Below, one piece after another: positions 2,431-25,711 of a DNA stretch of 25,711 nt; positions within the stretch are counted from its first letter, which is position 1; the number at the start of each line of letters is the position of its first letter. The stretch lies in IMG/VR virus record IMGVR_UViG_3300008114_003566, positions 1 through 25,711 of that record. The stretch is one strand, 5' to 3'. The notes under the pieces were generated by a model. The model saw only the letters and a program-made list of their open reading frames with translations, searched no databases and had not been told where the DNA came from. Made by a program: the position numbers and the translations under genes. This stretch comes from a virus.

Positions 2431-2440
2431 AAGAGGAATT

Positions 2441-2908: not shown

Positions 2909-2920
2909 TAAGAGACGATT

Positions 2921-4356: not shown

Positions 4357-4369
4357 ATTAAAGTATTTT

Positions 4370-9572: not shown

Positions 9573-9578
9573 AATTAC

Positions 9579-9956: not shown

Positions 9957-9960
9957 AATA

Positions 9961-9987
9961 TTATTTATTTATTTATTTATTTATTTA
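9961..9987. repeat. (TTAT)6.75 tetranucleotide repeat upstream of the fibre genes
   Basis: An uninterrupted TTAT array lies between the wedge gene and the small fibre gene. On the - strand it reads TAAA-type repeats starting within the wedge gene's stop. It provides stop codons in all frames, and occupies the place where the ribosome-binding site of the 9956 start should be. Copy-number change would alter spacing, not a coding frame. Confidence 0.95.
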
Positions 9988-10552
9988 ATCGTTCCATTAA
10001 TCTTCCACCTATAAACTCTACTTCCTGTCCTTCTACCGTGAATTCATCAGATAACGAATAGAGTGAAGATGGCTCAGTTACTTCACCAGTACTCAATAGT
10101 ACATTATACTCTAAACCCTGAGAATCCACAATTATTTTATCTTTATTAGGTCCTACGACTAAATTAAAATCTTCTAAATATCTTTCTGCAAAAGTAAATT
10201 TTGTATCTGAAAAATCTTGATATAAGAAAATCTTTTTTATACCAGCTAAACATAATTTTTGCATTTGAGAATGTAAAAATGGTAAAACTATTTGAGCATA
10301 GATGCGTTTTCTATAGTCTTCATCGTTTAAACCGTATCTTTTTATACCAGGAATAGTTCCTATTCTATCTAATTGAATACCAAAAGCTGTGTCTAAATGA
10401 CATAAAGTAGAAACATCATAAATTGCATCTTCTAAAGCTTGCTCTTGCTCCATAATGACTTCTAGAATCATATTTATAACAGAGCTATCTTTATACTGAG
10501 ACATTAAGCGTTTTTTAGCTAACTCAATTTTATTTGTAATTTTTTGAATCAT
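9977..10552 (-). CDS. Baseplate wedge protein, DUF2612 / P2 gpI-like
   Basis: A 191-residue baseplate protein that closes the wedge and connects to fibres. The segment from about 47 to 90 ('DAIYDVSTLCHLDTAFGIQLDRIG..PG..RYGLNDEDYRKRI') carries the family pattern of 'd..la.G.qLD.iG.i.g..R.g..D..YR..i' with YRKRI at its end. The C-terminal part is beta-rich. It follows the J-like gene with an ATGA overlap, the order J then I used in P2-like and Pam3-type baseplates. Confidence 0.8.
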   Translation of the reverse strand: MIQKITNKIELAKKRLMSQYKDSSVINMILEVIMEQEQALEDAIYDVSTLCHLDTAFGIQLDRIGTIPGIKRYGLNDEDYRKRIYAQIVLPFLHSQMQKLCLAGIKKIFLYQDFSDTKFTFAERYLEDFNLVVGPNKDKIIVDSQGLEYNVLLSTGEVTEPSSLYSLSDEFTVEGQEVEFIGGRLMERLNK

Positions 10553-11979: not shown

Positions 11980-12335
11980 GCTTCACCTTCAATTACAAAA
12001 CCGTTTCTATCTTTTACTATAAAAGATACATTTATTAATTCACTTCCTTCTTTTCTAAGGATTTCAACTTCTATAATTTCTGCGACTTCAGGAATTCCTT
12101 GTAATTCTTTTATAAAAAGATTTCTTATTGATTCTTCAGAACTTGATTTTGTAAAAACATATTTTAAATAATCAACACCATCTTCTAGATTTAAAAAATT
12201 ATCTCCTGTAAAAAACAACAATCTAGTTTTAATTTTTTGCAAAGTAATCTCTCCATCTCGAGTAAATCTAATATCTCCATTCTCTATCACTAAATCATGA
12301 GTAATTGGATTTAAATATAAATCTTTAATAGTCAT
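11976..12335 (-). CDS. gp25-like baseplate wedge protein
   Basis: A 119-residue sheath-initiating baseplate protein of the T4 gp25/P2 gpW type. 'DLYLNPITHDLVIENGDIRFTRDGEITLQKIKTRL' pattern at the N-terminus (quoted here in part: GDIRFTRDGE at about 20-29) and 'GVDYLKYVFTKS' near 53-64 fit the family's '.....q.ir.rL.t..GE....p..Gvp'. The C-terminal 'EVAEIIEVEILR' fits 'p.v..v..v.v'. In contractile tails it links wedge to the first sheath ring. It overlaps the spike gene and the J-like gene by four bases each. Confidence 0.85.
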   Translation of the reverse strand: MTIKDLYLNPITHDLVIENGDIRFTRDGEITLQKIKTRLLFFTGDNFLNLEDGVDYLKYVFTKSSSEESIRNLFIKELQGIPEVAEIIEVEILRKEGSELINVSFIVKDRNGFVIEGEA

Positions 12336-13141
12336 ATAGGAGCCTCTGTTTGAGCTGGAATAGCAGCAGTTGGACTACTTCCAACAACTGGTTTTGAGTA
12401 CATATGTTTATGATCTTTCAATGAAACTATACCAGCTTTTACATCTCCAGTAGCTTCAACATCTCCAGCTACTTTTAATTTAGCGCCAACTTCAAATGTT
12501 TGATTATTCTTTCCAAATGCTTTACCGTCCAAATGTAAATCACCCTTTATATTTAAATTTGCAGTGTCTAAATTAACATTACCTGTAGATTTAAGATGAA
12601 CATCTCTACAATTAATTGTAGCATCATGGTCTAAATTTATCTCAGCTGTTTTCGAAGAAATCTTTAAATGATTTTTAGAATCAATTTCAACATCTCCGTT
12701 TTGTTTTATTTTTATAGTTGTACCAGAGTAAAAAATATTTAAATCTTCGTTATTTTCTATAAGATTAGGTTTGTTAAATTGCTTCAATCCCAAAATTGCA
12801 ACTGCATCAGATAAATGATGAGTACGTTTCGTTTCTGGTTTTTGATTAGATATTCCAGTTAACCAATTTGTTATATCTTTATCTGCAAAAAATACTATAC
12901 AGGAATCTCCAGTTTTAACTGGCATAGTTATATAAGCACCTCCAGAAGATGGCATTATAATAGGCACACCTGATATAACTGGATATTCTGTAAAAGAATT
13001 ATCATCCTCTTTCTTTTTAGAATCTATTTTGATATTTGCTTTTTGCGTTTTAAAATCATAAGATTCAATAATTCCTGGCATACAAACATTTATAGAGTTC
13101 GTAATTTTTGTTTGTAAAGCTTCTAAAAACTCATTATACAT
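12332..13141 (-). CDS. Baseplate spike / central tail needle, Gp138-type N-terminus
   Basis: A 269-residue membrane-piercing spike. The N-terminal ~110 residues form an OB-fold-like domain as in Gp138/gp5 spikes: 'CMPGIIESYDFKTQKANIKI', then 'YPVISGVPIIMPSSGGAYITMPVKTGDSCIVFF'-type phrases and 'HHLSDAVAI' near 107-115. From about 128 the sequence is a repetitive beta helix with 'I.I...gdveI.s.nhl.i...' pattern. Residues 243-246 read DHKH and end with a Pro/Ala-rich tip. The HxH pair at the tip is where P2- and phi92-like spikes bind a metal ion. It follows the hub gene by 6 bases. Confidence 0.88.
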   Translation of the reverse strand: MYNEFLEALQTKITNSINVCMPGIIESYDFKTQKANIKIDSKKKEDDNSFTEYPVISGVPIIMPSSGGAYITMPVKTGDSCIVFFADKDITNWLTGISNQKPETKRTHHLSDAVAILGLKQFNKPNLIENNEDLNIFYSGTTIKIKQNGDVEIDSKNHLKISSKTAEINLDHDATINCRDVHLKSTGNVNLDTANLNIKGDLHLDGKAFGKNNQTFEVGAKLKVAGDVEATGDVKAGIVSLKDHKHMYSKPVVGSSPTAAIPAQTEAPI

Positions 13142-13147
13142 TTCAGC

Positions 13148-13969
13148 TTATCTATCTACTACAATAAGTTTAGTATACCACTCATTACCCATATTGTCAC
13201 CAATGTGAGTTAATTCTTTTATCAAAAAAGTACCTTTTAAAGAGCTACTATCTATAGAAATTAAATCTCCAACTTCAAGCTGTGGGTTTAATAAACAAAC
13301 TACTGAATATTCACCTTTTTCTTTTTTTTCAAAGTCTTTGTTTTTAATTGTTCTATTTGGACTTTCTATTAAACCCGTTTCTGCAGATAATAAAAAAGCT
13401 TTTAAAGTTGTCGATGAGTTTTTTGTTAAAATTTGTATTTGCCCATTTTGTATAGACCATTCAAAATCATATTGCATAGCCAAATCTTGCAATGCATCAG
13501 ATACAGTGCCTACAAAACTATAGCCGTTTTTTATGTTCTGAGGTTTTAGATTTGAAAAGCGTAAAGGTAAATTTATTTTTTGAATTATAGTATCAATTAT
13601 AGTTTTAGTAGATGTATTTTCAGCAAATGAAAGCTGAATATAATTGTTTTTTATAGCTTTAAATCCATCTTTAGAATATATAGTAGTTACAATATCTGGA
13701 GCATAAATATAATGTGTTACATCACTTACATTACCTTGTGCTATTTTTATCAAACCCACATCTTCTGAATATCCGCACTGCATTTCAAAAAAAGCATATT
13801 GCTCACTACTAATAGCATTTCTCTCTTTCTCTGATAAATTATAAATATCAACTCTAGAAAAATTACTTTTTAATTGCAAACTTTTTTTTATTTCAAATTT
13901 TATTTTTAGATTTTCTATTAATAAATTTGGAGATATAGTTATACTATATATTCGATTAAAACTAACCAT
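13148..13969 (-). CDS. Baseplate hub protein (gp27 / P2 gpD-like)
   Basis: A 273-residue predicted hub that joins tail tube and spike. The start at 13969 is chosen because the ATG overlaps the previous stop as TGATG; a longer reading from TTG at 13993 exists but would lie within the plug gene. The sequence 'SRVDIYNLSEKERNAI' near 37-52 (numbered from this start) matches the hub phrase 'n.l.i.iyNLs...r..i', and 'VTIYSKDGFKAI'-like, 'SDALQDLAMQYDFEWSIQNGQIQI' and 'PQLEVGDLISI' phrases are the expected order. It lies directly before the spike gene. Confidence 0.82.
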   Translation of the reverse strand: MVSFNRIYSITISPNLLIENLKIKFEIKKSLQLKSNFSRVDIYNLSEKERNAISSEQYAFFEMQCGYSEDVGLIKIAQGNVSDVTHYIYAPDIVTTIYSKDGFKAIKNNYIQLSFAENTSTKTIIDTIIQKINLPLRFSNLKPQNIKNGYSFVGTVSDALQDLAMQYDFEWSIQNGQIQILTKNSSTTLKAFLLSAETGLIESPNRTIKNKDFEKKEKGEYSVVCLLNPQLEVGDLISIDSSSLKGTFLIKELTHIGDNMGNEWYTKLIVVDR

Positions 13970-14319
13970 CAAAAAATCTTTAAATTTTGCCAAAAAGGAT
14001 CTTCTGCCAAATCTTGTTCAGTTAAATAAAACATAGAAAATTTATCTGCTAAATTTTTTTCATCTATTTCTTCTGAATTGTCAAAGGAAGGTAAAACAAT
14101 TAAATAACCTTTTGGCTTCTTTACACTTTGTACATTTTTTAAAATATTAGTATAAGGAACTAAAGAAAATCCACTTACAACATCTTCATCATCGCTTTTT
14201 ATATCGAAGCTCCACAAACCAACTCGTTCATTCCATTTAAAAACAAATGTAAAAACTTCATTATCTATGATCAAATTTTCTTTATATAAAAAATTATTTT
14301 TTAATATTATTTGAATCAT
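13969..14319 (-). CDS. Baseplate plug protein, Pam3 gp18-like
   Basis: A 116-residue protein between the Dit-like and hub genes. The N-terminal strand 'IDNEVFTFVFKWNERVGLWSFDI' (about 20-42) fits the plug family's 'l.g..y.l...yN.r...W.ldl'; the following 'GFSLVPYTNIL' fits '..g..lv.g.dLl'. In cyanophage Pam3 the equivalent plugs the baseplate channel between hub and tube. Its start overlaps the Dit-like stop (TAATG) and its stop overlaps the hub ATG (TGATG). The call rests on this motif and the gene order. Confidence 0.75.
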   Translation of the reverse strand: MIQIILKNNFLYKENLIIDNEVFTFVFKWNERVGLWSFDIKSDDEDVVSGFSLVPYTNILKNVQSVKKPKGYLIVLPSFDNSEEIDEKNLADKFSMFYLTEQDLAEDPFWQNLKIF

Positions 14320-15005
14320 TATTTAAAAGGATTTAAATTAGTTAATTTATCAAGTTTTTCTTTTAAATTTGTTTTAGTTTTTTCCTTTTCTACAGTGTTT
14401 AACTCTTGAGTATCTCCCTTACCTAAACTTGCTAAATTAGAAACTCCAGGTAATGAAGATGGAGCGATCGCTCTTTTAACATTAACTATTTTACTAGTTA
14501 CAAATTTAATCTGTTTTAAACTTATACTAAACTCCAAAGCATCTCCAGTCTTTTTATCGCTAGAAAAACTTAAAGTCTCTATAGCCATATTATCATATGT
14601 TTTCATCTTTGAAACTATACTTACCAAAGTTTTATTTTCTTTTAAAGTCTCTAAATAGTTAAAAGCTAAAATCTGTTTCTTACTTGGTCCAGTAATATAA
14701 TTATAGATATTACTTGCTATATTACCTTCAAAAAAACCTGTCAAAGTATTTATATCTGATAAATATAAAGAATTATTGGTAATCAAACCGTCCATTTTAA
14801 TGACAGTTGGATTGCTATAAATATGATCTGATATATTTGAACCGTTTGAAATTGGATGGTTTGTAATAGTGTTAGAATAGTCAATAACTTCAACCATTGT
14901 AGCATCTAAAAGCAAATCTCCAATCTTTCTTTTAGAACCAACAAGATAGTTTTTTCCAAGTAAAGCTATGCTACTTATTGAAGCTATGAGTGAAGTAGTA
15001 GACAT
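14319..15005 (-). CDS. Dit-like distal tail / baseplate protein
   Basis: A 228-residue predicted tail-tip adaptor. The region 'DATMVEVIDYSNTITNHPISNGSNISDHIYSNP' (about 33-65, here described rather than needed in full) matches the N-terminal domain of Dit-like phage tail proteins: hydrophobic start, 'hP...gs.isDHi....' and then 'IKMDGLITN'. The C-terminal 40 residues are Lys/Thr/Leu-rich and probably a flexible helix. It lies between the tape measure and the plug, the position of this protein in Pam3-type myophages. Confidence 0.78.
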   Translation of the reverse strand: MSTTSLIASISSIALLGKNYLVGSKRKIGDLLLDATMVEVIDYSNTITNHPISNGSNISDHIYSNPTVIKMDGLITNNSLYLSDINTLTGFFEGNIASNIYNYITGPSKKQILAFNYLETLKENKTLVSIVSKMKTYDNMAIETLSFSSDKKTGDALEFSISLKQIKFVTSKIVNVKRAIAPSSLPGVSNLASLGKGDTQELNTVEKEKTKTNLKEKLDKLTNLNPFK

Positions 15006-15017
15006 AAACTATATACT

Positions 15018-16496
15018 TTATATACTTAGATTATTTACCAAATCAGAAAAATTTAACTCAAGTTCTTTTTTTATTAATTCGCTAATGTTTAAAGCCGTAG
15101 ATCTTGCTTGGTCAGCAGTGACATTATCACCTACAGAAACATTATCTATTTTTATAGAGAAATTAGGACTTAAATTTATATTTTGAGATTTGGTTGTGTT
15201 TTTATTAAAATTAGAACTTATAAAATCTGGTTTAAAAGGTTCTGGTGTAAAAAATTCACGATTAGGATTAAAAAAAGATTGTTTTGATAATTCTTTTTGA
15301 TTTAAAAATTGTGTATTTAAAGATTCTTTATTTGGTTTAAAAAAAGAATTTTTAGAAACTAAATTAGAACTTAATTTTGAATTAGAATCTTTATCATTAT
15401 TTTGATTAAAACTTGGAAATTTAAAATTTATATTACTTAAACCCTTAAACAAAGTCATAGTTTGATTTGTTACAGATAATACAGATTTAGAAAAACTATC
15501 TAATACACCTTGCCACTTTTCAAATTTTCCAAAAACCAAACCAAATACTGAATCTATACCTTTAGTCCAACCTATTAAATCTTCAAACACATCATTTAAA
15601 GCTATAACACCAACAGTTATAAGTTTAAAAGTTCTAGAAATTGGTAAAAAAAGCGGTAATACATAACTAAATATTACTCCAACTCCAGACATAGTTTGTT
15701 GTAAAAAGCCAAATTCTTTTTCTAATTTTGAAACGTAATTAATTAAAGAGCCAATCGGTTTTAAAACAGAACCAAAAATATCACCCAATAACATCAAGCC
15801 CTTTCCTAAAACATTTGTTAAAATGTTTGATAAATTTCCTATAAGTTCTTTATTTTGTAAATACCAATTCTTAAAACTAATAGTTAATTTATTAAAAACA
15901 GGCATATAAGATAAACCGATTGTAGTTCTAATATTATCTAATATTGTACGAAACTCAGCCCAGTTTTTAATATATTCTTTAGAATCAGCAATGTTTTTAG
16001 GCGTAAATATATTTGTTAAATTAGAGGCTTCTAACATTGATTTCTTAAAAGAATCTGATGATTGCTTAAAAACATTTGCTAGTTTTTTATTTTTATCAAT
16101 CATTAAAGATTGTAATGTATTTAATCTTAAGAGAGGATCTTTTATTTTAGAAACTTTATCTGCAAATCCAGCCATTGTCTTAGTAATCTCTCCGTAAGAA
16201 TTACCAAATTTTTGAGACACTAATTCTAAAGCTTGGATTTTTCCAGATGTTAAACCAGTTTTTTTGGAAAGCTCATCTAAAGAATTTGCAGTTTTTGCAA
16301 CACCCAAAGCTACACCAGATAAAACGACATTACCAAAGAAAATCCCCCTAGTTGCAAATTTTAAACTGTTGAAACTTAAATTTAATTGATTAACATTCTT
16401 TTTTAAAGAATTGATAGATTTTTCATAATCACCAATTCCTGTTTTATTAATTCGGAAACCAAGGACTGTAACTAATCTCCTTAAAACTGTGCTCAT
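15018..16496 (-). CDS. Tail tape-measure protein (short)
   Basis: Sets tail length and helps DNA passage. It is 492 residues, short for the family. The N-terminal 'MSTVLRRLVTVLGFRIN' and the following helix are typical; 'LDELSKKTGLTSGKIQAL' at about 73-90 is the common tape-measure phrase. A hydrophobic segment lies around 272-300 ('VIFSYVLPLFLPI'). The C-terminal ~130 residues are Asn/Ser/Phe-rich with repeated 'SFFKPN', 'SFFNPN'-like pieces, then a helix. Using the usual rule of about 1.5 angstrom per residue, the tail would be near 70 nm. AAGGA lies 7 bases before its ATG. It overlaps the chaperone-position gene by ATGA. Confidence 0.85.
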   Translation of the reverse strand: MSTVLRRLVTVLGFRINKTGIGDYEKSINSLKKNVNQLNLSFNSLKFATRGIFFGNVVLSGVALGVAKTANSLDELSKKTGLTSGKIQALELVSQKFGNSYGEITKTMAGFADKVSKIKDPLLRLNTLQSLMIDKNKKLANVFKQSSDSFKKSMLEASNLTNIFTPKNIADSKEYIKNWAEFRTILDNIRTTIGLSYMPVFNKLTISFKNWYLQNKELIGNLSNILTNVLGKGLMLLGDIFGSVLKPIGSLINYVSKLEKEFGFLQQTMSGVGVIFSYVLPLFLPISRTFKLITVGVIALNDVFEDLIGWTKGIDSVFGLVFGKFEKWQGVLDSFSKSVLSVTNQTMTLFKGLSNINFKFPSFNQNNDKDSNSKLSSNLVSKNSFFKPNKESLNTQFLNQKELSKQSFFNPNREFFTPEPFKPDFISSNFNKNTTKSQNINLSPNFSIKIDNVSVGDNVTADQARSTALNISELIKKELELNFSDLVNNLSI

Positions 16497-16717
16497 TTTA
16501 AATTCCTTGTGAAAGATAAAGAAGCAATAAACTCATCAAGATCTCTAAGTCTTGATCTATATTTTCCAATCAAAAGAGCAACCTCTCTTGTTGTTAGTTT
16601 TAATACTTCGTATTTCGAATCAATTGAATTAATTAAATGATGTTCTAACCCTGAATCACTAAAATCTATTTCTATAAAGTCTGGATTTGAATTTTTAACT
16701 TTTGTATCTTTTGTCAT
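16493..16717 (-). CDS. Putative tail assembly chaperone
   Basis: A 74-residue acidic/helical protein in the position of the tail assembly chaperone, between tube and tape measure. It has 'TTREVALLIGKYRSRLRDLDEFIASL', a helix with an alternating charge pattern (about 42-67), and no membrane segment. Sequence alone would not identify it; position does. In most contractile and long-tailed phages this slot encodes one short and one frameshift-extended product that coat the tape measure. Only one short frame is seen here. Confidence 0.6.
   Translation of the reverse strand: MTKDTKVKNSNPDFIEIDFSDSGLEHHLINSIDSKYEVLKLTTREVALLIGKYRSRLRDLDEFIASLSFTRNLK
16496..16502 (-). other. T TTA AAA heptamer: candidate -1 ribosomal frameshift site
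   Basis: The last two sense codons of the 74-residue gene are TTA AAA, preceded by T, so they form an X XXY YYZ heptamer in the zero frame, directly followed by its TGA. A -1 slip would place the ribosome on the tape-measure ATG in frame. An AAGGA lies immediately upstream. It may simply be the tape-measure start region; see findings. Confidence 0.35.
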
Positions 16718-16721
16718 AATT

Positions 16722-17141
16722 TTATACTATTTCTTTTAAAGAACCAAATGATTTAGTAGCCTTCATCATTTCTATTGTAAAAGCTGTATTCCTCGTTGCG
16801 TTTGAAGATAAAACCCCACCTAGTAAGTTTACGATGCATTCAGCACAATCAAGCACTGTATCAGTACTTGAATCAACAAACCTGACAGGAAATGAAATGC
16901 CATTTTCAGCCATGTTACTAAGAAAACTTATAGAACTTGAGCCAATACCCAAAGTCACTGTTAAAATTATATTTCTATTATGTAAAGCTCTTCTAAAAGA
17001 ATTACCATCTATATCATTATCTGTCTCATATAATGGACCAGCTACTTCATAAGTAATCCAATCTCCAATGATACCACCTTCTATTCTTTGAGGACCTACA
17101 ATAAGTGAATGTTTTTTTGTATCTTGCGTCTCTGTTGTCAT
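16722..17141 (-). CDS. Tail tube protein, DUF3277-like
   Basis: A 139-residue tube subunit. The sequence begins with an N-terminal tail, then 'HSLIVGPQRIEGGIIGDWITYEVAGPLY' (about 11-38), 'DGNSFRRALHNRNIILTVTLGIGSSSISFL' (45-74), and ends with 'TRNTAFTIEMMKATKSFG'. These match the DUF3277 structural family: dGe..r....d..giitltL...s..n..l, then t..W.i......i. It follows the sheath and precedes the chaperone and tape measure, the standard myophage order. AGGA is present upstream of the ATG. Confidence 0.85.
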   Translation of the reverse strand: MTTETQDTKKHSLIVGPQRIEGGIIGDWITYEVAGPLYETDNDIDGNSFRRALHNRNIILTVTLGIGSSSISFLSNMAENGISFPVRFVDSSTDTVLDCAECIVNLLGGVLSSNATRNTAFTIEMMKATKSFGSLKEIV

Positions 17142-17163
17142 TTTTATATTCCTATATTTTTAA

Positions 17164-18225
17164 TTAAGCATTTAAAGCAGTTACTATTCCATAAATAGTC
17201 CCAATTTTTTTGATTGCATAACTTAATGTAAATCTAAAACTAATACCATTTAAAATTCCAGATGCACGGTCTTGTTCAGAAATGTTATTTAAATTTGGCA
17301 TTGCCACATCGCTACTTAAAACTCTTTCTATCACTCCTCTATTAGCAGCTTCAATTAAAGCTTGCATAATAGCTCCAGAGACCAAAGAAAACCCAAATGC
17401 GTTATAAGGAACAATAGGTTTAGATAAAAAAACATTAAGTAGATTTTCTTTAATTGTTGTTATAACCCAATCTTCGAAATAAGAAATTTCAAAAGCATTT
17501 CCATTAGCAACTTTACCGCAATTCACACCGACTCTTGGGTTTGTTTCGTTAGAAACATAATCATAATAATTTATGTTATTAGTCTCAAGGGCTAATTTTT
17601 GAGTACTATTTAAACTAGCTGGCTGAACACCTGAAACATCTAAGAAACTCAAAGTGTAAGTTCCAGCATCCCTAGGTAAAATAGAACCCATAATAGCTGC
17701 GTTTGGGTAATCGTTATTAGCATCCTTAAAAAAGGTAACAACTCTTTTATAATTTTGATCTTTGAAATACTTAGCCAAAACAATTTCTTTCCCAGGAATT
17801 ATATTGACAGCAAAAACTTGCTTGTTAGCTTCTGTTGCTACGGCTAAAGCTTTTAACTCATCGTCTATAATATCTGCAACTGTAGCAGTAGGGGCAACTA
17901 TTACGCAATATGCATATTTACCAGAATTAATAAATCTTGTATGTAATTGAACCCAACTTTCTGCAGATTTTTTTTGACAAATAAAAATTCTAGAAGCACT
18001 CGGTTGTTGTAAAAATATTTTTGATGCACATTTATATTCTTCAGTAGAAGCACCTTGCGCGCTCGGTGGGTAATCAACCAAAACTTCTCTTAAAGATTTA
18101 TATTCTTTAATAGTTTCATCGTTATTTTTCGAATTACCAAGTATTAAAATTGTAGAAAATTGCTGTCTTGTAACTCCGAGACTTTCTCTCGTAATAATTA
18201 TATCTCCAATTAAATCATTTAACAT
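17164..18225 (-). CDS. Tail sheath protein, DUF3383-like
   Basis: The contractile sheath, 353 residues. 'RQQFSTILILGNS' near 20-32 and 'YKSLREVLVDYPPSA' at about 41-55 fit the N-terminal sheath domain; 'PSASRIFICQKK' at 75-86 follows. The core 'AAIMGSILPRDAGTYTLSF' and 'GVQPASLNSTQKLALETNNINYYDYV' segments fit DUF3383 sheaths ('...p.a......ls.....l...n.N.Y......'). The C-terminal 'YAIKKIGTIYGI' completes the typical end. AAAGGA precedes the ATG. Its presence shows a contractile-tail phage. Confidence 0.9.
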   Translation of the reverse strand: MLNDLIGDIIITRESLGVTRQQFSTILILGNSKNNDETIKEYKSLREVLVDYPPSAQGASTEEYKCASKIFLQQPSASRIFICQKKSAESWVQLHTRFINSGKYAYCVIVAPTATVADIIDDELKALAVATEANKQVFAVNIIPGKEIVLAKYFKDQNYKRVVTFFKDANNDYPNAAIMGSILPRDAGTYTLSFLDVSGVQPASLNSTQKLALETNNINYYDYVSNETNPRVGVNCGKVANGNAFEISYFEDWVITTIKENLLNVFLSKPIVPYNAFGFSLVSGAIMQALIEAANRGVIERVLSSDVAMPNLNNISEQDRASGILNGISFRFTLSYAIKKIGTIYGIVTALNA

Positions 18226-18230
18226 TTATA

Positions 18231-18845
18231 TTATTCCTTTATTATTGTCTCTGTCGTTAGAAAGCTCTCAAAGCTATCTAAACTATTGTTTTGACTATCT
18301 ATATTATAAACTATATTATCATCTTTATCTACAATAATCGTATCGTTATTTACTTCATCTGTAATTTCTATATGCCTTATAGAGTTAATTATGTTTGAAA
18401 TATTTTGATTATAGCAAATTAAAAAATCATAAACAGCTCGATATTCATTCTTTGCAGATAAGGCGGTAGGTAAATATATAATATCCGATAAATCTCTTAC
18501 GTAAGCTATCTCTCCTTGAAATACGCGATAATAAGAATAATTATCAAACCCAAATTTTATTTTGTTAAGTAATTCTGTACATTGGAACATATCGTCGCAA
18601 AATGCTTGTATTTGTACAGTACCATTCATTAAATAAGTTCTCTTTTCAACTGTATTTAAAAATTGATCTGTCTCGTGTTTTGTTATACGTAAACCTTCTA
18701 TTTTTTGACTAGAGATACTAACTGTAATAAAAGGTTTTGTAGGATTTGGAGCGTTTTGATTTGCTATGTTAACTTTAACTGAATTATCATCTACACATTT
18801 TATAACAAACTCCAGTAATTTTTTATAAAGATCTTTTTGTAGCAT
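18231..18845 (-). CDS. Neck / tail terminator-like protein
   Basis: A 204-residue protein between head closure and sheath. 'IANQNAPNPTKPFITVSISS' (about 27-46) is the common terminator phrase 'q.ap.P..Pyi.v', followed by 'GTVQIQAFCDDMFQCTELLNKI' (~74-95), and 'AYVRDLSDIIYLP' (112-124). These fit phage neck terminators of the gp12/LIC_12616-like type. The C-terminal 50 residues are acidic, Asn/Asp-rich and unlike the family, and probably disordered. It overlaps the previous stop by one base (TAATG). Confidence 0.72.
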   Translation of the reverse strand: MLQKDLYKKLLEFVIKCVDDNSVKVNIANQNAPNPTKPFITVSISSQKIEGLRITKHETDQFLNTVEKRTYLMNGTVQIQAFCDDMFQCTELLNKIKFGFDNYSYYRVFQGEIAYVRDLSDIIYLPTALSAKNEYRAVYDFLICYNQNISNIINSIRHIEITDEVNNDTIIVDKDDNIVYNIDSQNNSLDSFESFLTTETIIKE

Positions 18846-19204
18846 TATTCTAACTCTACTGCAATTAATTCATAATGAGATAGGTACGTCATATCAAATA
18901 TTTTCTTTTTCAAGATTAAATATTTCTTATTATATAACATCACTATATCTGGATTTGTTTCATTTTCTTCTGATGAAAATAATTCTGTATCTGTATAAAT
19001 TAGATAAGATGATTTTTGTCTATAACCTTCTGGTAAAATTTGAGTGATTTCTCCAGGCGCTGGTTGGACCGACGCTTCTATATCAAAAAACGTTTCCTCT
19101 CCATCTTGCCACAAACCAAGATTTAATGAGTCTACATTTTGTACATAATAACCAGGTTGTTTTCTAAAAACTTGAATTTTTCTTTTAAAAATGTTTGGAA
19201 TCAT
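18845..19204 (-). CDS. Head closure / neck protein
   Basis: A 119-residue protein starting inside the last 20 bases of the MFS gene. 'FFDIEASVQPAPGEITQILPEGYRQKSSYLIYTDTEL' lies at about 38-74: 'SVQP' followed by 'LPEG.R' and a beta strand ending in 'YT' is the usual pattern of head-closure proteins in neck clusters next to terminator and sheath. It has no signal or membrane segment. It is the first of the neck and tail structural genes on this strand. Confidence 0.72.
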   Translation of the reverse strand: MIPNIFKRKIQVFRKQPGYYVQNVDSLNLGLWQDGEETFFDIEASVQPAPGEITQILPEGYRQKSSYLIYTDTELFSSEENETNPDIVMLYNKKYLILKKKIFDMTYLSHYELIAVELE

Positions 19205-20336
19205 TAATAAATCTATATTTCTTATAAAAGAATAATAAACTCATTGAAGTTAATAGTAAACTAAATATGAATACATATGAAAAATTATAAGAAACTAAAT
19301 ACCCACCTATCAATGCAGCTATAAAACTTCCAAGCCCTACAAATAAATTCATTACACCGCAAGCTGTGCCGTATTTTTCTTTTGAAACATTATTAAATAG
19401 TAACTTTGTAAAACAAACTTGACTACCTACTCTTTGTATACCCCAAAAAAACAAAGCTAAAAAAGCCATTTTTAAATCTAAAGTTTTACAAAATATAAAG
19501 ATTGTATTAAAGATCACTAAACTAAAAAAAGTTATATAGACAGCTATTTTTTTATGTTTGGAATCTAAAATCATTCCTAAAAACGGAGCGATTAAAAATG
19601 ATATACTATTAAATATTCCTATCGCACTTAAATAGAACCATGGTTCTATAGAGTTTTGTTTTAAAAACAATATAATTAAACCGTCATTAAACCTTGCACA
19701 GAAAAATAAAAATATTATTATATATAGTTCGTAATTATCTTTTATAAGTTCAATTGATGAATATTTCGCAGTTTCTTTTTTTATAATTTTCTTTGTAAAA
19801 TCTTTCATTAAGCAACTTAAAACAAAAGATATAAAACATAAGAATGTAGCAAAGATTATTAAATTAGCAATTAATGCAAAACTTAGTTCTTTTGACAGAT
19901 AAAAAGATGTAACAATAGATCCAAACACACACCCTAAAGCTCTAGAAGAGTTTAGTATACCTAAAGACATTCCTTTTTTATGACCACTCATAACACCAAC
20001 GAAAGCATCTCTCGGCGATGCAAAAAAACCATTGCTAAGCCTCTCTAAAAACTTTGTAGATATTAAAGTATAAATATTTGGTATTATTAATAGAAGTTTT
20101 GAAAAGAAAGCTAATATTATTGCTATAAAAAACAATCTTTTTTTGTTTTTCAATTTATCGAATAGATATCCAGATATTAACTTTATAATATTTGATGAGA
20201 ACTCCCCTACTCCTTCTATTAAAGCAAAAAGAAAAAGAGATATACCGATTACTTCAACGCTTAACAAAGGTATAATAGTCATGCCTATCGTAGTTGATGC
20301 GGCAAGTAAGAAGTTTATTATATATAGATTAATCAT
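19185..20336 (-). CDS. MFS transporter, 12 membrane segments
   Basis: A complete 383-residue major facilitator superfamily protein, a secondary carrier of the inner membrane. Twelve hydrophobic segments can be placed, six on each side of a charged loop at about 178-200. Motif A is present in the 2-3 loop as GYLFDKLKNKKR (56-67), and a second copy-like 'GMILDSKHKK' in the 8-9 loop (254-263). Residues 107-111 (SPRDA) match the PRDA signature of a bacterial MFS group annotated without a firm substrate. Start is ATG with ATGA overlap to the upstream gene; its last 20 bases overlap the head-closure gene. So it is inside the phage operon, not an insertion with its own borders. Base composition looks like its neighbours. 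Substrate cannot be told. Confidence 0.92.
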   Translation of the reverse strand: MINLYIINFLLAASTTIGMTIIPLLSVEVIGISLFLFALIEGVGEFSSNIIKLISGYLFDKLKNKKRLFFIAIILAFFSKLLLIIPNIYTLISTKFLERLSNGFFASPRDAFVGVMSGHKKGMSLGILNSSRALGCVFGSIVTSFYLSKELSFALIANLIIFATFLCFISFVLSCLMKDFTKKIIKKETAKYSSIELIKDNYELYIIIFLFFCARFNDGLIILFLKQNSIEPWFYLSAIGIFNSISFLIAPFLGMILDSKHKKIAVYITFFSLVIFNTIFIFCKTLDLKMAFLALFFWGIQRVGSQVCFTKLLFNNVSKEKYGTACGVMNLFVGLGSFIAALIGGYLVSYNFSYVFIFSLLLTSMSLLFFYKKYRFINDSKHF

Positions 20337-21010
20337 TTAAATAAACTGATCAACATAATAGCTACACAAGTAAAAAAAATAGTTAGACAAGTAGTTATAG
20401 CAATGTCAAATATGTCAAATGACAACAACCATAAATAAAATACTTTTAACAAAGGTGTTTTAGGAATTGGTGAGTTATATAATTCTAGTAAATCAAGAGG
20501 ATTGTTAACTGTACTTAATTTTTGTAGTATTATGTTTTTTAAATATTCTCTTACTATAGAATTAGTTTTATAAGATTTTATAGATGGTTTAATTAATTTA
20601 TCTAAATAAAAAGTAAAGTTATTAAGAATTATATTAGTTATAAATAATTCAAAAGCTTTTATTTGAGGACATCTTCTCATATAGGGTTTTCCTGAAAGTA
20701 AACATGGTTGTTTATAATCTGGAGATCTCATTAGTAACATTTTCAATAAAAAAAACTCATCTACAAAATCAAGGTGTGCAAATAATTTTTCAGATATGAT
20801 TTTTTCTAATATAAAAATTGATTTTTCTGTAACTTCGTTAGAGTTTAAAACTATATCAAACGTTGTTTTGTTTAAAAACTTATTGTTCTTATTAACTATT
20901 TCAAATAATATATCTATATCAAAATCATTTTTTGCAATTTCAAATAATTTATCAACACAAATTTTAGAGTCTTTAAAAAGACCTATTAAAACTTCAGATT
21001 TTGTTTTCAT
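20333..21010 (-). CDS. Unknown protein with C-terminal membrane anchor
   Basis: A 225-residue protein that I do not recognise. The first ~195 residues are soluble, mostly helical and Lys/Asn/Leu-rich, with a short Cys/Pro-rich piece 'PCLLSGKPYMRRCP' near 101-114. A single strong hydrophobic segment lies at about 200-222, ending in a short 'SLFK' tail, so it may be tail-anchored. It lies just upstream of the MFS gene and overlaps it by ATGA, so the two are translationally coupled. A partner role with the transporter is possible but unproven. Confidence 0.6.
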   Translation of the reverse strand: MKTKSEVLIGLFKDSKICVDKLFEIAKNDFDIDILFEIVNKNNKFLNKTTFDIVLNSNEVTEKSIFILEKIISEKLFAHLDFVDEFFLLKMLLMRSPDYKQPCLLSGKPYMRRCPQIKAFELFITNIILNNFTFYLDKLIKPSIKSYKTNSIVREYLKNIILQKLSTVNNPLDLLELYNSPIPKTPLLKVFYLWLLSFDIFDIAITTCLTIFFTCVAIMLISLFK

Positions 21011-21014
21011 TTTA

Positions 21015-21227
21015 TTATAAATCGTATAATGTTTTAAGGGTTTTTTCTAAAATCCTAATGGTTATTAAAATAATAAAGAGTACAAGACTAATTGATATAT
21101 AAATATTTGTAAAATAACTTATTATAACATAAGTACTTTGCATTGCTACAAACAAAGCTAATGATAAAATAAAAGGAAGTAATAATATGTCTAACGATGT
21201 AATTAATATTTTTTTTAATAAATCCAT
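21015..21227 (-). CDS. Small two-helix membrane protein (holin candidate)
   Basis: A 70-residue protein with two long hydrophobic segments (about 8-31 and 36-58), a basic start (MDLLKK) and a charged end. Size and topology fit class II holins, which release the endolysin, and no other holin is evident near the endolysin. It sits about 14 kb upstream of the lysis genes, which weakens that idea. AGGAG lies 7 bases before the ATG, one of the strongest ribosome-binding sites in the window. Other small membrane proteins would look the same. Confidence 0.6.
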   Translation of the reverse strand: MDLLKKILITSLDILLLPFILSLALFVAMQSTYVIISYFTNIYISISLVLFIILITIRILEKTLKTLYDL

Positions 21228-21232
21228 ACTTT

Positions 21233-21379
21233 TTACTCCTTTTTAAATAGATTGGGCTTTGATAAATCCGAACATTCTTGAGTTGTACCATCTGGGTTTT
21301 CTATCCATACATATCTTTGAACATTATGGAACTTTGCTTTTGTTTGTATTATTTCTTCAGGAAAGTAAAAGTGTACCAT
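21233..21379 (-). CDS. 48-residue conserved-looking small protein
   Basis: A short open frame (ATG at 21379, TAA at 21233) filling an otherwise empty 158-base gap. The protein starts MVHFYFPEEIIQTKAKFHNV and contains 'YVWIENPDGTTQECSDL' and an end 'NLFKKE'. The 'W.dnpdGTt' phrase is seen in small phage proteins, and the translation is soluble and free of low-complexity. It begins 6 bases after the stop of the 118-residue membrane-protein gene and ends 5 bases before the next ATG, and its last codons carry the AGGAG used by that gene. Function unknown. This spacing makes it likely real. Confidence 0.6.
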   Translation of the reverse strand: MVHFYFPEEIIQTKAKFHNVQRYVWIENPDGTTQECSDLSKPNLFKKE

Positions 21380-21385
21380 ATGCTG

Positions 21386-21742
21386 TTATTTATTTGAATT
21401 TGATTGGGAAAAAGAATAACAAATAAACCAAACGGAAAAACCTATTAATACAACAAAGGTAATAAAACCAGTCATCAATCCAACGATAATCTCTGATGTT
21501 ATCCAAAATTTTAATAACCAAAAAAATGCTTTAGATATAAACACTCCTAAAATCATTATAAGAAACATCAAACCAAAGAACTTAAAGCCTGACGGAAGCA
21601 TTGACTCAAGAGCCAAATACTCCATTTCTCTTTCTAACCTCTCTCTTTCTCTTATATTGCTTTCATAGCCATGAATTCTTACTCTGCAATCAAAACAAAT
21701 ATAATCTCTACAACAATCAGGATATGATTTTTTATTATTCAT
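21386..21742 (-). CDS. Membrane protein with N-terminal Cys cluster
   Basis: A 118-residue protein with no recognised family. Residues 10-19 hold CC-x4-C-x2-C, which could bind a metal. A charged helix with an Arg/Glu run follows at 29-41, then two hydrophobic segments at about 53-77 and 84-111. It is one of a row of small membrane-protein genes and ends 6 bases before the 48-residue gene. It could be a membrane-tethered accessory or a lysis protein; the sequence does not say which. Confidence 0.55.
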   Translation of the reverse strand: MNNKKSYPDCCRDYICFDCRVRIHGYESNIRERERLEREMEYLALESMLPSGFKFFGLMFLIMILGVFISKAFFWLLKFWITSEIIVGLMTGFITFVVLIGFSVWFICYSFSQSNSNK

Positions 21743-21743
21743 A

Positions 21744-21974
21744 TTACTTACTATGTATCATCATAAAATCTTGTAACTCTTTTAAGTGAGAGTCTACTTG
21801 TTCAGGCTCATCGCTCAAATTAATATCTTTTCCAGTTTTTACAAAGTAATAAAATTCAGCAACTTCTTCTATTAAATTGTTTGGTCCTAAAATATATTTT
21901 GAAAAAATCCCAAAACATAAAATTATTCCAAAAATAAATTGCTTAGTTAAATATTTTTTTATAAAATTTATCAT
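21744..21974 (-). CDS. Small membrane protein, one N-terminal helix
   Basis: A 76-residue protein with one hydrophobic segment (about 13-30) after a basic start, then 'LGPNNLIEEVAEFYYFVKTGKDINLSDEP' as a soluble tail and an ending 'MMIHSK'. The 'GP.N.iEE.AE......tG.din.s' phrase recurs in small membrane proteins of phages; I know no function for it. TAAGGCG about 10 bases before the ATG may serve as ribosome-binding site. A candidate promoter lies just upstream, so this may be the first gene of the downstream tail operon. Confidence 0.6.
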   Translation of the reverse strand: MINFIKKYLTKQFIFGIILCFGIFSKYILGPNNLIEEVAEFYYFVKTGKDINLSDEPEQVDSHLKELQDFMMIHSK

Positions 21975-22007
21975 TTTAAAACGCCTTATTTTTTATTACT
22001 TTGTTTT

Positions 22008-22035
22008 ATTATATCAATCGCTAAATCTATATAAA
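22008..22035 (-). promoter_or_regulatory. Possible promoter upstream of the small membrane-protein genes
   Basis: In the 68-base gap between the 304-residue gene and the 76-residue gene, the - strand has TTTATA (22035-22030), a 16-base spacer and a perfect TATAAT (22013-22008). The 76-residue gene's ATG at 21974 follows about 33 bases downstream. It could drive the membrane-protein, MFS and tail genes. Such boxes are common in AT-rich DNA, so this is tentative. Confidence 0.35.
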
Positions 22036-22042
22036 GAAGTAT

Positions 22043-22927
22043 TTACTTTTTTAAATTTAAAATCTCGATCTCTCTTCCCAGTCTTCTCATCTCACCTATC
22101 ATATTCGCATATTCAGCATCTTCTTCATCTAACTTTCTCTTTTCTTTTACCTTTTTAATTTCTATTAAAGTTTCAGATGCTATTTTTTGTACATGTAATT
22201 TTGAATGAGATTGATAAGAATTAATCAAATCAATCATTTCTTTATCAAATTCTTTAGACAATTTGTATAAACACAAAAAGGCTTGTTTGACAAAAGACAC
22301 CCTGTCGTCATCAAAATATGGCTTCATGATTTCTAAGATTTGCTCTTTTAAAAAAGGAAATGATTTAACAAGTTTTGATTGAAACCTTAAAGTTTCAATT
22401 TGTATATATTCGTTTTTATTATCCAAATAAGATTTAGATAAATTAAATATTTTTTGTATAACTGAATGATCTTTTTCGTCTTTTAAGTAAATGCGAATAA
22501 AATTAAAAAATTTGTTTAGGTCTTGAGAGTGATATGAAAAATCACAACCGAAAGTCTCAAAAATTGAAATTATAAAATCGCTCCTTGTTTTTTCTGGATA
22601 TTGGTTTATCAGCGGTATTAAACAGTATTCTCTATATATGAATTCTACCTCCTCCAAACTATCTTTGTAGTTATAACTATTTTTCAACAAATTAATTATT
22701 TCAGATTGAAGAGTTTTAGAATGCTTTCTGATAACGTTTGAAAGATCGTTTACAATACTCGACCCATGTTCGTCTACCATAGTAAAAAAAATTAATTTTG
22801 AAATTTTTTCTAAAATAGATTTTTCGGATTCTTTTGAAAGATTAACTCTTTTATAATCTTCTTCGTGTATACTATTTAAATCAAAGTAGAATTGTTCTAT
22901 ATATTTTCTTTTCATTTTTTTTTTCAT
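22043..22927 (-). CDS. Alpha-helical repeat-like protein (HEAT/ARM-like), unknown function
   Basis: A protein of about 295 residues, helical throughout and without membrane segments. Helix pairs such as 'FIRIYLKDEKDHSVIQKIFNLSKSYLDNKNEYIQIETLRFQSKLVKSF' and 'FDDDRVSFVKQAFLCLYKLSKEFDKEM' (both longer than quoted in part) look like HEAT or armadillo repeats. The last third is rich in Lys/Glu and ends as a coiled coil. I do not recognise a family. Start is uncertain: ATG at 22927 or 22915, or a TTG at 22957. A run of ten A lies between the first two. No strong ribosome-binding site precedes any of them. It follows the helicase gene by 43 bases. Confidence 0.6.
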   Translation of the reverse strand: MKKKMKRKYIEQFYFDLNSIHEEDYKRVNLSKESEKSILEKISKLIFFTMVDEHGSSIVNDLSNVIRKHSKTLQSEIINLLKNSYNYKDSLEEVEFIYREYCLIPLINQYPEKTRSDFIISIFETFGCDFSYHSQDLNKFFNFIRIYLKDEKDHSVIQKIFNLSKSYLDNKNEYIQIETLRFQSKLVKSFPFLKEQILEIMKPYFDDDRVSFVKQAFLCLYKLSKEFDKEMIDLINSYQSHSKLHVQKIASETLIEIKKVKEKRKLDEEDAEYANMIGEMRRLGREIEILNLKK

Positions 22928-22970
22928 TAATTTAGTTATAATTGCTTTATATAACAACGTTAACAGTAAG

Positions 22971-24335
22971 TCAATAAGTTTTATTTAAAATTAATGAATT
23001 TAAAAGATTTTCTTGTGTTAAGTTTTTGTTTAAAAGAGCTTGGTAGATTCTTTCATCTATGCAATTTTTTGCAATTAAATGATTAATTTTTACAGATTTT
23101 GTTTGTCCTTGTCTATGTAGTCTAGCGTTGAATTGCAAGTAATGTTCAAGGTTCCAAGTCATACCAAACCAAATTATTGTAGATCCTCCATTTTGTAAAT
23201 TCAAACCCATTCCAGAAGATGCAGGATGACATAAAAGTAATTTTATTTTTTTTTTATTCCATTGTTCTACAATTGTAGAAATATTATCTGAACATAAGAT
23301 TTTAGCGTCTGGAAATCTTTTTTTTAATCTTATTAAGTCACTTTTAAAATTGTAAGCAACTAAGATATTTTCATTTTTATTATTTTCAATAATATCTTCT
23401 AAGGCATCTAATTTAGAATTATTTAACTCAATTATATTTTTGTTTTCATCGTAAATAGCGCCATTACAAAATTGCAGAAGTTTATTACATAAAACTGCTT
23501 GTGTTTGAGCAACTACAGTATCATTTTTCAATTCTAATATAAAATCTTTCTCTAGTTCTTTATATTGTTTTTCATTTTCTAGATCTACATAAGTAACTAA
23601 ATCAATTCTTTCTGGCAAAGAAATATAATCAGAGGCTTTCAAAGAAAAAGCTATATCTGAAATTTTATTAAATAAATCCTTTTCATTTTTAGGAAAACAA
23701 TCATAAAAGAAAAAAGATCCAGAAAACTTATTTGTCTGAGTTTTGTAATTAAAATTTTCAGAAATAAATTTACTCATTGATTTTTCAAGCCTTTGCCCTT
23801 TGTCCATCAAATAAATTTGCGCCCATATGTCCATCAGACCGTTCGGAGACGGTGTGCCTGTTAGTTCTACCAAATAATCGCTTTTGATCTTAGAAAGTGC
23901 TTTAAAACGCTTAGATTTGGCATTTTTAAAACTAGAAGCTTCATCAATGACAATCATATCGAAATTAGATATAATTTTTTTATTTAAAGACTGTAATAAA
24001 TCTGGGACCGTTTCTCTGTTTGTAATGTAAAGTTGAGTATCTTGTTTAAAAGCTTTATCTCTTTTTGGTTTTAACCCAGTACATATAGTATATGTAATAT
24101 CTTTAGTATGTTCCCATTTTGATAATTCATTATGCCAAACATTTTTAGCGACTTGAAGCGGAGCTATTATTAAAACTCTTTTAACTAGATTTTCTTTTAA
24201 AAGATCTGATATAGCAGTTAAACTAATTATAGTTTTACCGCATCCCATATCTAGATGCAAAGCACATTTTTTTATAGTTTTGATTTTACTGACTAAGTTT
24301 TTTTGATAATCATGTAAATCATCTTTTAATCTCAT
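22971..24335 (-). CDS. SNF2-family DNA helicase/translocase
   Basis: A 454-residue superfamily 2 ATPase. Motif I is MGCGKT at 30-35, motif II DEAS at 131-134, motif III LTGTPSPN at 158-165, motif V SSGMGLNLQ at 373-381 and motif VI QFNARLHRQGQ at 401-411. The 'Q' lead and 'HRxGQ' in motif VI are the SNF2/DEAD-like phage type. No nuclease or DNA-binding extra domain is visible. It begins immediately after the terminase small-subunit-like gene, as TAA-ATG, so the two are cotranslated. Such enzymes remodel DNA or DNA-protein complexes and occur in many phages; its exact role is open. Confidence 0.92.
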   Translation of the reverse strand: MRLKDDLHDYQKNLVSKIKTIKKCALHLDMGCGKTIISLTAISDLLKENLVKRVLIIAPLQVAKNVWHNELSKWEHTKDITYTICTGLKPKRDKAFKQDTQLYITNRETVPDLLQSLNKKIISNFDMIVIDEASSFKNAKSKRFKALSKIKSDYLVELTGTPSPNGLMDIWAQIYLMDKGQRLEKSMSKFISENFNYKTQTNKFSGSFFFYDCFPKNEKDLFNKISDIAFSLKASDYISLPERIDLVTYVDLENEKQYKELEKDFILELKNDTVVAQTQAVLCNKLLQFCNGAIYDENKNIIELNNSKLDALEDIIENNKNENILVAYNFKSDLIRLKKRFPDAKILCSDNISTIVEQWNKKKIKLLLCHPASSGMGLNLQNGGSTIIWFGMTWNLEHYLQFNARLHRQGQTKSVKINHLIAKNCIDERIYQALLNKNLTQENLLNSLILNKTY

Positions 24336-24806
24336 TTACTCTTCTTTGTTAAGATGTTCAAAATCTTTTTCAATTTGCTCTTTTGTTTTAGAAAAAGAGG
24401 GGTTTTGAAAAGTAATACTAATATTTGCTGGAGTATCAGATTGATTCTTTAATTTCGATAATTTTTCATCTATATATTTAGCTGCATCAAGTCTAAGTTT
24501 TTCTTGAAGACTATTTTTCATAATGTCTATTATTATTTTTATTGAATCAATAGCATATTTAGCTTTTGAAATATCTATAGCATCTTTTAGTTCTTTGTTT
24601 CTAGCTTTTAAACGTGAAAGAGTTTCATGACAAACCCCAACATATTGCTTTGCAATTTCTTTTTCTGAATATCCTTGAAGTACTAACTCACTTATTCCTA
24701 ATATTTTTTCTGATATTTCTTCTTCAGAAGAACCTAAAATTGATAAATTATTTAAATTAGTTGAATCGCTTTTTTTATCTTTTGATATTGTTTTTTTTTC
24801 TTTCAT
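24336..24806 (-). CDS. Terminase small subunit candidate
   Basis: A 156-residue protein with a helix-turn-helix-like region at 36-70 ('SELVLQGYSEKEIAKQYVGV' then 'CHETLSRLKARN'), a helical middle (70-120) and a tail with 'ANISITFQNPS'. The pattern HTH, then 'A...K...ID...I...I......kLR.DaakyidekL', then a short 'i.i.' tail is the layout of Sf6/P22-type terminase small subunits that bind the packaging site. It is 18 kb from the large subunit and on the opposite strand, which is unusual but not excluded. It could instead be another HTH DNA-binding protein. It overlaps the previous gene by 4 bases. Confidence 0.6.
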   Translation of the reverse strand: MKEKKTISKDKKSDSTNLNNLSILGSSEEEISEKILGISELVLQGYSEKEIAKQYVGVCHETLSRLKARNKELKDAIDISKAKYAIDSIKIIIDIMKNSLQEKLRLDAAKYIDEKLSKLKNQSDTPANISITFQNPSFSKTKEQIEKDFEHLNKEE

Positions 24807-25183
24807 AAAAAATAATTATATAGATCAAACTTTAAATTTGTAATTATGTCAAATAGTACAAAACCCAAAGTACATTGAAAAGCAATTAAAGAAAAATTAA
24901 TTTGTTTTATTTTGTTTTCTAGAGCCGAAGAAATTGTTTCAAGTAATTCTTCAGAATTAGAACTAAAAATAAATTTTTTATATTTAAAATTGCATTTGAT
25001 AGATTGTATACAAGAAATCAAACAATAAAATAATAAAAACTCAATTATAATTAAAGTTAAAATATCTTTTATATAAAAGTTAAAAGTTATTATGCAGATT
25101 AAATATATACAAAGTAAGGATAAGGATTTTTTATGTATTTCTTTAACATAAGAATTTAAAAATGTACTTTTAAACTTTTGCAT
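24803..25183 (-). CDS. Membrane protein with about three hydrophobic segments
   Basis: A 126-residue protein without a recognised family. Two adjacent hydrophobic segments lie at about 20-38 and 42-61, then a charged soluble stretch (62-95), and a third hydrophobic segment (98-118). Its start overlaps the end of the upstream gene by 14 bases and its end overlaps the terminase-like gene by 4. Size and three-helix layout would fit a class I holin, but the soluble middle is long and lysis genes are far away, so the function is open. Confidence 0.55.
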   Translation of the reverse strand: MQKFKSTFLNSYVKEIHKKSLSLLCIYLICIITFNFYIKDILTLIIIEFLLFYCLISCIQSIKCNFKYKKFIFSSNSEELLETISSALENKIKQINFSLIAFQCTLGFVLFDIITNLKFDLYNYFL

Positions 25184-25643
25184 TATTACCGACGTTAAAA
25201 TTTAAGTAAAAAGGAGAAAGATCATAATCGACAGACCCAGATAAAAAATTTTGTTTTTCTTTTATGAAAGAAAGGCAGGCAAAAGTTGCAAGCAGACTTT
25301 TAGTTCTAGCGTTTAAAATAGCAATTTTAGTAAGTTTATCAAATGGATAATCAGCTAAATGTATCCTAACATCCTTTTTGCCCTTTTGTTCTTTTATAAA
25401 ATCAAAACTTTCTAAAGAGGTCGGTTGAAATTTGTTATCGTTAACAATTACCTGTGAAAGAAAATTTAAAAGAACTAATCTTAACATTCCGCTTAAAGAA
25501 GAATTATATAAAACTGCTAATTGCTCTAAAGAACTTTCTGTAGATTCACAAACGCTAAAACTAACACAATGTAGTTTTTTCTTAATTAAATTAGGTTTTA
25601 AAAGCTCTTGTAAAACTTCTTTTCTTTTTACTTCGTTTATCAT
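25170..25643 (-). CDS. Possible tandem ribbon-helix-helix DNA-binding protein
   Basis: A 157-residue soluble protein. Two stretches each look like a ribbon-helix-helix unit. The first (about 25-66) has strand HCVSFSVCE, helix SSLEQLAVLYN and second helix 'SGMLRLVLLNFLSQV'. The second (91-130) has strand DVRIHLADYP, helix FDKLTKIAILN and then 'ARTKSLLATFACLSFIKEK'. Both show the 'strand, L..lA...., S..l......fl' RHH pattern. A monomer with two units would act like an RHH dimer, as a repressor or packaging-site binder. This rests on pattern alone. It shares ATGA with the end of the partial gene upstream. Confidence 0.5.
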   Translation of the reverse strand: MINEVKRKEVLQELLKPNLIKKKLHCVSFSVCESTESSLEQLAVLYNSSLSGMLRLVLLNFLSQVIVNDNKFQPTSLESFDFIKEQKGKKDVRIHLADYPFDKLTKIAILNARTKSLLATFACLSFIKEKQNFLSGSVDYDLSPFYLNFNVGNNAKV

Positions 25644-25711
25644 TTTAAACCATTTACTAATTCTTTTATTTTATCTGTTGTCATTAGCTTAATATATTTG
25701 TTATATATATA
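25640..25711 (-). CDS. C-terminal end of a gene running off the window
   Basis: On the - strand the frame is open from base 25711 to a TGA at 25642-25640, and this TGA overlaps the ATG of the next gene as ATGA, the spacing used throughout this operon. The visible 23 residues end in MTTDKIKELVNGLK. An ATG at 25682 would give only a 14-residue peptide, so a gene continuing upstream is more likely. Nothing can be said about function. Confidence 0.4.
   Translation of the reverse strand, partial: YIYNKYIKLMTTDKIKELVNGLK

Follow-up and report, generated by a model that had tools for sequence, protein, structure and literature searches.

An MFS transporter subfamily with fixed gene places in two types of phages, probably of Rickettsiales-like endosymbionts

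Background

Transporter genes have been found in phage regions before, both as uptake genes among the auxiliary metabolic genes of phages and as MFS genes that two studies mention in prophages predicted for Paenibacillus larvae and Acinetobacter baumannii (PMC9341999, PMC6193963). The mere presence of an MFS gene in a phage region is therefore no novelty. However, the available text of these two reports deals with predicted prophages and describes neither a conserved subfamily nor a conserved gene place, unlike the subfamily shared by two phage types that is presented here. Among viruses of eukaryotes, the giant viruses Orpheovirus, Indivirus, Hokovirus and Bodo saltans virus encode proteins that have the MFS fold in common with the phage protein and show 15-17% identity to it in structural alignment.

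The gene studied here lies in a viral DNA stretch of 25,711 nucleotides (IMG/VR record IMGVR_UViG_3300008114_003566, positions 1 to 25,711), which we call the window. A sequence-only reading of the window had considered complete MFS permeases within a tail operon to be rare in phages, and the searches support rarity. A tblastn search with the MFS protein against 50,697 phage records at a threshold of 1e-5 returned no relative, the one match being at chance level (E 3), and the relative encoded by contig L031 found nothing significant as query against phage records. With a Rhizobiales cousin as probe, the only match was a partial one, to a "hexuronate transporter" of two records from Acinetobacter phages. 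Among predicted viral structures, the significant matches belong to giant viruses, herpesviruses and baculoviruses, all of which infect eukaryotes. The MFS protein of the window is a phage-borne accessory transporter, of a known kind, that belongs to a distinct subfamily with fixed places in two phage types.

The transporter gene and the fold of its product

The MFS gene is an intact reading frame that starts with ATG. Pfam MFS_1 (PF07690) covers residues 4-341 of the product with an E-value of 1.6e-27, far beyond chance, and an AlphaFold (AF2) model built from six sequences (pLDDT 83.4, pTM 0.84; an input of two sequences had given pLDDT 44) shows twelve membrane helices, in agreement with the two six-helix halves typical of the superfamily. 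Motif A was read directly as G55-YLFD59-KLKNKK between helices 2 and 3, with a repeat in the second half, G253..D257, between helices 8 and 9; both are kept in the phage copies. The reading frame, the Pfam match over the whole length, the model and the motif together uphold the earlier description of a complete 12-segment carrier. Solved MFS proteins match the model over residues 1-377 with Z up to 37.8, the closest being OxlT, MFSD10, FLVCR2, VMAT and NorA at similar Z. In the Foldseek comparison the multidrug exporter NorA was the top match and VMATs ranked high, although such neighbours of a predicted structure would inform on the fold and not on the substrate. A sequence search of solved structures with the MFS protein found nothing relevant. 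PHROG 2034, an MFS-like family of unknown function, matches the protein with an E-value of 2e-12, best in the second half; it was rejected as a phage-specific family since it is a generic MFS profile with matches in all 14 control genomes.

Two hallmarks of DHA1 drug:H+ antiporters are missing or faint. Motif C (GxxxGPxxGG) is absent from helix 5, where the window and its sister phage read GCVFGS and contigs L031 and L036 read GCVLGA, the GP being retained in L033 only. The multidrug resistance profile TIGR00880 gives a weak partial match of 34.1 bits, its cut-off being 131. In those phage copies whose sequence reaches the first membrane segment (TM1), the D..SSE..H signature of the cellular PRDA-type branch described below is also missing; it is replaced by STTIGMT (ATTIGMT in L033), as it is in a pseudogene from a Megaera plasmid. 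Since STTIGMT/TTIGMT stands where the cousins have D..SSE..H, their coupling mechanism may be lost in the phage clade. In our reading, the protein is a functional carrier whose substrate or coupling site has changed.

Genomic organization of the window

The contig bears sheath, tail terminator, terminase, capsid and helicase genes, and the MFS gene lies between phage genes. On the minus strand the MFS gene is preceded by DNA-binding-type ORFs, an SNF2 helicase, a HEAT-like ORF, three small membrane ORFs and a 225-aa ORF, and is followed by genes for head completion, tail terminator, sheath, tube, tape-measure, baseplate, fibre and lysozyme (Table 1), of which tape-measure, baseplate and fibre were assigned by gene position. 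Its place is therefore where the block of helicase and small membrane proteins gives way to the connector/tail block. The proposal that the transporter lies inside a structural or tail operon is accordingly only partly right: the gene is at a block boundary, after the helicase and the small membrane ORFs and at the upstream edge of the tail block, and related copies in another phage type sit in a replication operon. An ATGA sequence couples it to the 225-aa ORF, for whose product no Pfam, PHROG or PADLOC match was found, and it overlaps the head-completion gene by 20 bases; both junctions are in the window as first described.

Table 1. Features of the window (coordinates in the window) and contigs with MFS relatives
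Feature	Position or record	Strand	Size	Evidence or remark
MFS transporter, complete	19185..20336	-	383 aa	ORF, Pfam MFS_1, AF2 model, solved-structure matches, relatives
Protein ATGA-coupled upstream of MFS, one C-terminal membrane segment	20333..21010	-	225 aa	ORF
Head-completion (head closure-type) protein	18845..19204	-		phrog_939 "head protein" 4.7e-19; 81% in L003
Tail terminator	18231..18845	-		PF23961 7e-14; phrog_1232
Contractile tail sheath	17164..18225	-		PF11863 4e-20; phrog_205 5e-54
Virion structural protein, tail-tube position	16722..17141	-		phrog_280; order as in Acinetobacter phage Mithridates
Small ORF, two membrane segments, between helicase block and MFS	21015..21227	-		ORF
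ORF, two membrane segments	21386..21742	-	118 aa	ORF
ORF, one membrane segment	21744..21974	-	76 aa	ORF; 75% identity in L003
SNF2-type helicase	22971..24335	-		Pfam, PHROG; MFS relatives adjoin this gene in other phage group
MFS relative (L031)	3300035181_001389		42 kb	L032 is nearly the same phage
MFS relative (L033)	3300044655_003102		50 kb	
MFS relative (L036)	3300037488_003206		32 kb	

The plus strand carries the head genes and terminase (1-6152), the minus strand nearly all of the remainder (6149-25643), and the two blocks meet tail to tail beside the lysis genes. In the DUF2213 head-block protein (1252-2430), EEKTEEKT-type repeats that are almost identical follow one another. No tRNA was found in the window, and it gave no match to the PADLOC defence-system models.

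Comparison with a second contig and a sister phage

A second contig (IMG/VR 3300008120_001445; L004) is 100% identical to the window over 16510-25711, which includes the MFS gene and both its borders. The two assemblies differ at 16447-16510, where the window has 62 bases and the other contig about 243, and the tail-chaperone ORF of the window is shortened there to 74 aa from 135 aa; this may be a genuine deletion or an assembly error. A diverged sister phage (L003, contig G001, 3300035438_002148, 28.6 kb) matches the window in gene order and has the MFS gene at the same place. An assembly join or a private insertion at the MFS gene was rejected on these two grounds, the identity of the second contig and the conserved order of the sister. 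For an artefact of assembly, contamination from a host or a single recent insertion, the one point in favour is that the two assemblies do differ, though not at the MFS gene; given the G+C and third-position G+C of the gene, which agree with the rest of the phage, in addition to the identical contig and the kept order, we regard this possibility as extremely improbable.

Fifteen genes shared by the window and the sister phage were compared. The MFS protein has the highest amino acid identity among them (91%), the lowest dN (0.045) and the lowest dN/dS (about 0.08, bootstrap 0.05-0.12), whereas the surrounding virion genes are 42-81% identical. The corresponding identities and dN/dS values are 81% and 0.13 for head completion, 81% and 0.12 for the helicase and 56% and 0.31 for the sheath; as these are Nei-Gojobori estimates for AT-rich sequences, several of which approach saturation in dS, the ranks are more reliable than the absolute values. 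A recent horizontal replacement between the two phages as the sole cause of the 91% identity was rejected because the dS of the MFS gene, about 0.58, is not near zero, and for the same reason constraint on the protein is needed. The MFS gene is under strong purifying selection. A mild local drop of dS across the 225-aa ORF, MFS and head-completion genes is possible. The pair of copies in L031 and L036 is likewise constrained (dN 0.07, dS 0.74). The 225-aa ORF evolves unusually fast (57% identity, dN/dS about 0.65) though its coupled MFS partner is the slowest-evolving gene; its product could be a partner or a host-facing protein.

The sister phage retains the upstream ATGA but has an 11-base gap in place of the downstream overlap, so the coupling on both sides is not conserved. 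The long residence that the sequence-only reading drew from two-sided coupling is nevertheless supported, by the shared place in the sister phage, by the purifying selection and by the finding of neither a recent private insertion nor an assembly join.

Relatives in a second phage type

MFS proteins 38-46% identical to that of the window were found in L031, L032, L033 and L036, by stepwise widening of the query and pattern-based scans of the collections, so that the number of carriers is a lower bound. Apart from L032, which is nearly the same phage as L031, these are three further contigs of an unrelated podovirus-like group. L031 and L033 belong to a phage type with TerL of phrog_38 and portal/adaptor proteins of phrog_1216/332; the terminase of the window is Terminase_3/phrog_2, the portal of the sister phage is phrog_146, and the sheath of the window has no match in the records of L031 and L032.

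In L031 and L033 the MFS gene lies between the genes of a VRR-NUC nuclease and an SNF2 helicase and overlaps the latter by 1 and 23 bases, respectively. Contig L036 starts inside its MFS gene, which also overlaps the helicase gene. The isolated Vibrio phage 1.017.O and Pseudoalteromonas phage AL keep the order polymerase, nuclease and helicase, with the last two genes overlapping directly and nothing between them. Because the joint is closed in these two phages, the MFS gene looks inserted there. In L019, a related helicase-bearing phage in whose record no MFS gene was found, ankyrin-type genes occupy the same joint, which thus behaves as a cargo slot; contig L025 does not extend far enough on that side to cover it. 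The MFS subfamily accordingly has fixed gene places in two phage types.

Other genes of these contigs deserve mention. A podovirus-like phage with an MFS gene, G011 (L053 covers its positions 1-17700), has three regions of note at 11876-13471, 10308-11876 and 1842-2975; it encodes a GroEL-type chaperonin, a type I restriction-like DNA methylase, accompanied by several specificity-like ORFs, and a patatin-like phospholipase. L036 encodes at 4345-5013 an outer-membrane beta-barrel protein of 222 aa (PF13505), whose gene adjoins a lysozyme gene.

Cellular relatives and probable hosts

The cellular cousins of the phage protein form a widespread MFS_1 branch that is 21-25% identical to it over the whole length and carries the signatures IEGxxE, SGxxxD and PRDA. 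Members of this branch, with the pattern IEGxxE...SGxxxD...KGxRxxPRDA, occur on plasmids of Sinorhizobium, Paraburkholderia, Cupriavidus and Nostoc, and the plasmid genes often adjoin metal or efflux genes (dmeF, SMR/crcB/arsC or FTR1). The phage clade has kept motif A, IEGxxE in helix 2, PRDA in helix 4 and RF[SN][ED] in helix 7. However, it differs from the cellular branch in the exchange of D..SSE..H for STTIGMT in TM1, in the loss of KGxR in helix 4 and, mostly, of the GP of motif C, and in a QR that has newly arisen in helix 10.

The nearest cellular relative is a decayed MFS gene on plasmid p1_M_poly_crypto of "Candidatus Megaera polyxenophila", a member of the Rickettsiales (NZ_CP104167.1:6525-7400). 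It has the subfamily signatures STTIGMT, PRDAF.GV and RFNDG and is 37-46% identical over its pieces but, unlike the intact phage copies, is broken by stops and frameshifts. The other matches of this plasmid to the phages are limited to helicase-like, regulator-like and ankyrin-like genes, with no virion gene among them. In the IQ-TREE analysis the Megaera piece groups with the phage copies in a single clade with 100/100 support on a long branch, far from ordinary cellular MFS proteins; the tree does not resolve the branching order within this clade, and phages may have acquired the gene from Rickettsiales or passed it to them. Two pattern scans of GTDB and genome contigs, which detect close relatives only, found no cellular relative. 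The proposal that the gene was captured from a host is thus sustained to the extent that a cellular origin, though an old one, is likely, with the Megaera gene as nearest relative.

As to the hosts, the four plasmid matches listed first, of 398 records, for the XRE regulator of the sister phage all come from Megaera/Megaira. Ankyrin-repeat proteins are encoded in the sister phage (L008, 3614-4486 and 13566-13970) and in L019 (7298-9989; phage G003), the L031 and L033 records include patatin-like proteins, and the G+C of these phages is 28-33%. The Megaera gene, the XRE matches, the ankyrin and patatin genes and the low G+C together indirectly favour Rickettsiales-like endosymbionts of protists, which are probably the hosts.

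Function of the transporter

We looked at how conservation is distributed over the helices. Among the window, L031 and L033, 44% of residues are invariant in the cavity-lining helices 1, 4, 7 and 10, against 35% in helices 2, 5, 8 and 11 and 14% in the peripheral helices 3, 6, 9 and 12. This gradient is matched by 19 of the 495 possible helix quadruples and was not significant in a circular-shift control (73/321). Helix 1, which bears STTIGMT, is the most conserved stretch.

With moderate confidence we take the protein to be a working phage-encoded MFS secondary transporter, present in at least two unrelated tailed-phage groups whose hosts are most likely Megaera-type bacteria, that moves a small metabolite and likely imports it. 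The carrier would be made by the phage during infection, would insert in the inner membrane of the infected, probably Rickettsiales-like host and would move its substrate by alternating access. Most likely it would add to what a metabolically dependent bacterial host takes up from the eukaryotic cytosol, a presumed direction and supply that are guessed from the metabolic dependence of such intracellular hosts.

The opposite direction has evidence of its own. The protein could be an exporter of a toxic compound (an antimicrobial, a metal complex or waste) from the infected cell or lysogen, in the manner of drug:H+ antiporters, and the top rank of NorA, the high rank of the VMATs, the partial TIGR00880 match and the metal or efflux genes beside the plasmid cousins agree with this. 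The neighbours of the cousins and the NorA match indeed lean toward export. However, the GP of motif C is missing in the window, the sister phage, L031 and L036 (though present in L033), the acidic residues of the cousins' TM1 are gone and the TIGR00880 score is far under its cut-off, so that we consider an exporter unlikely. To prefer import over export is a guess, which the loss of motif C somewhat favours and the efflux-type genes beside the plasmid cousins speak against.

Two further roles are harder to reconcile with the data. Many phage-encoded membrane proteins function in superinfection exclusion, and small membrane ORFs adjoin the MFS gene; the fold might then serve as a plug or receptor mask that alters the envelope and not as a carrier. 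But exclusion proteins usually diversify, while the MFS gene evolves slowest of the fifteen genes, its conservation peaks in the cavity-lining helices, it is common to unrelated virion types and it lacks a PADLOC match, all of which make this role improbable. Metabolite transport and superinfection exclusion were both among the functions offered by the sequence-only reading, and the former fits best: slow evolution, the sharing of the gene by unrelated virions and its replication-gene neighbours in one group suit a metabolic role better. It is similarly doubtful that the gene is moron-type cargo, exchanged among Rickettsiales plasmids and phages, that serves the bacterium or lysogen and not the replication of the phage. 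The related decayed copy on the Megaera plasmid would agree with such traffic, as would the cargo slot at the VRR-NUC/helicase joint; yet no integrase was recognised in the window, and the tight operons with replication or virion genes would point to expression in lytic growth.

Conclusions

Beyond a transporter of a small metabolite, a wider and distinctly tentative proposal is that the MFS subfamily, rebuilt at its transport core with a new helix 1, may serve unrelated phages of intracellular Rickettsiales-like bacteria as a common tool, with which they would tap the eukaryotic metabolite pool through the bacterial host. Little is known about the phages of obligate intracellular bacteria of protists, and the subfamily offers a specific marker gene for them as well as a protein that can be tested. 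It also indicates that phages carry complete 12-helix carriers as standing equipment. The stronger constraint on the transporter than on the virion genes, together with its presence in unrelated phages, suggests that phage growth in these hosts is limited by membrane transport.
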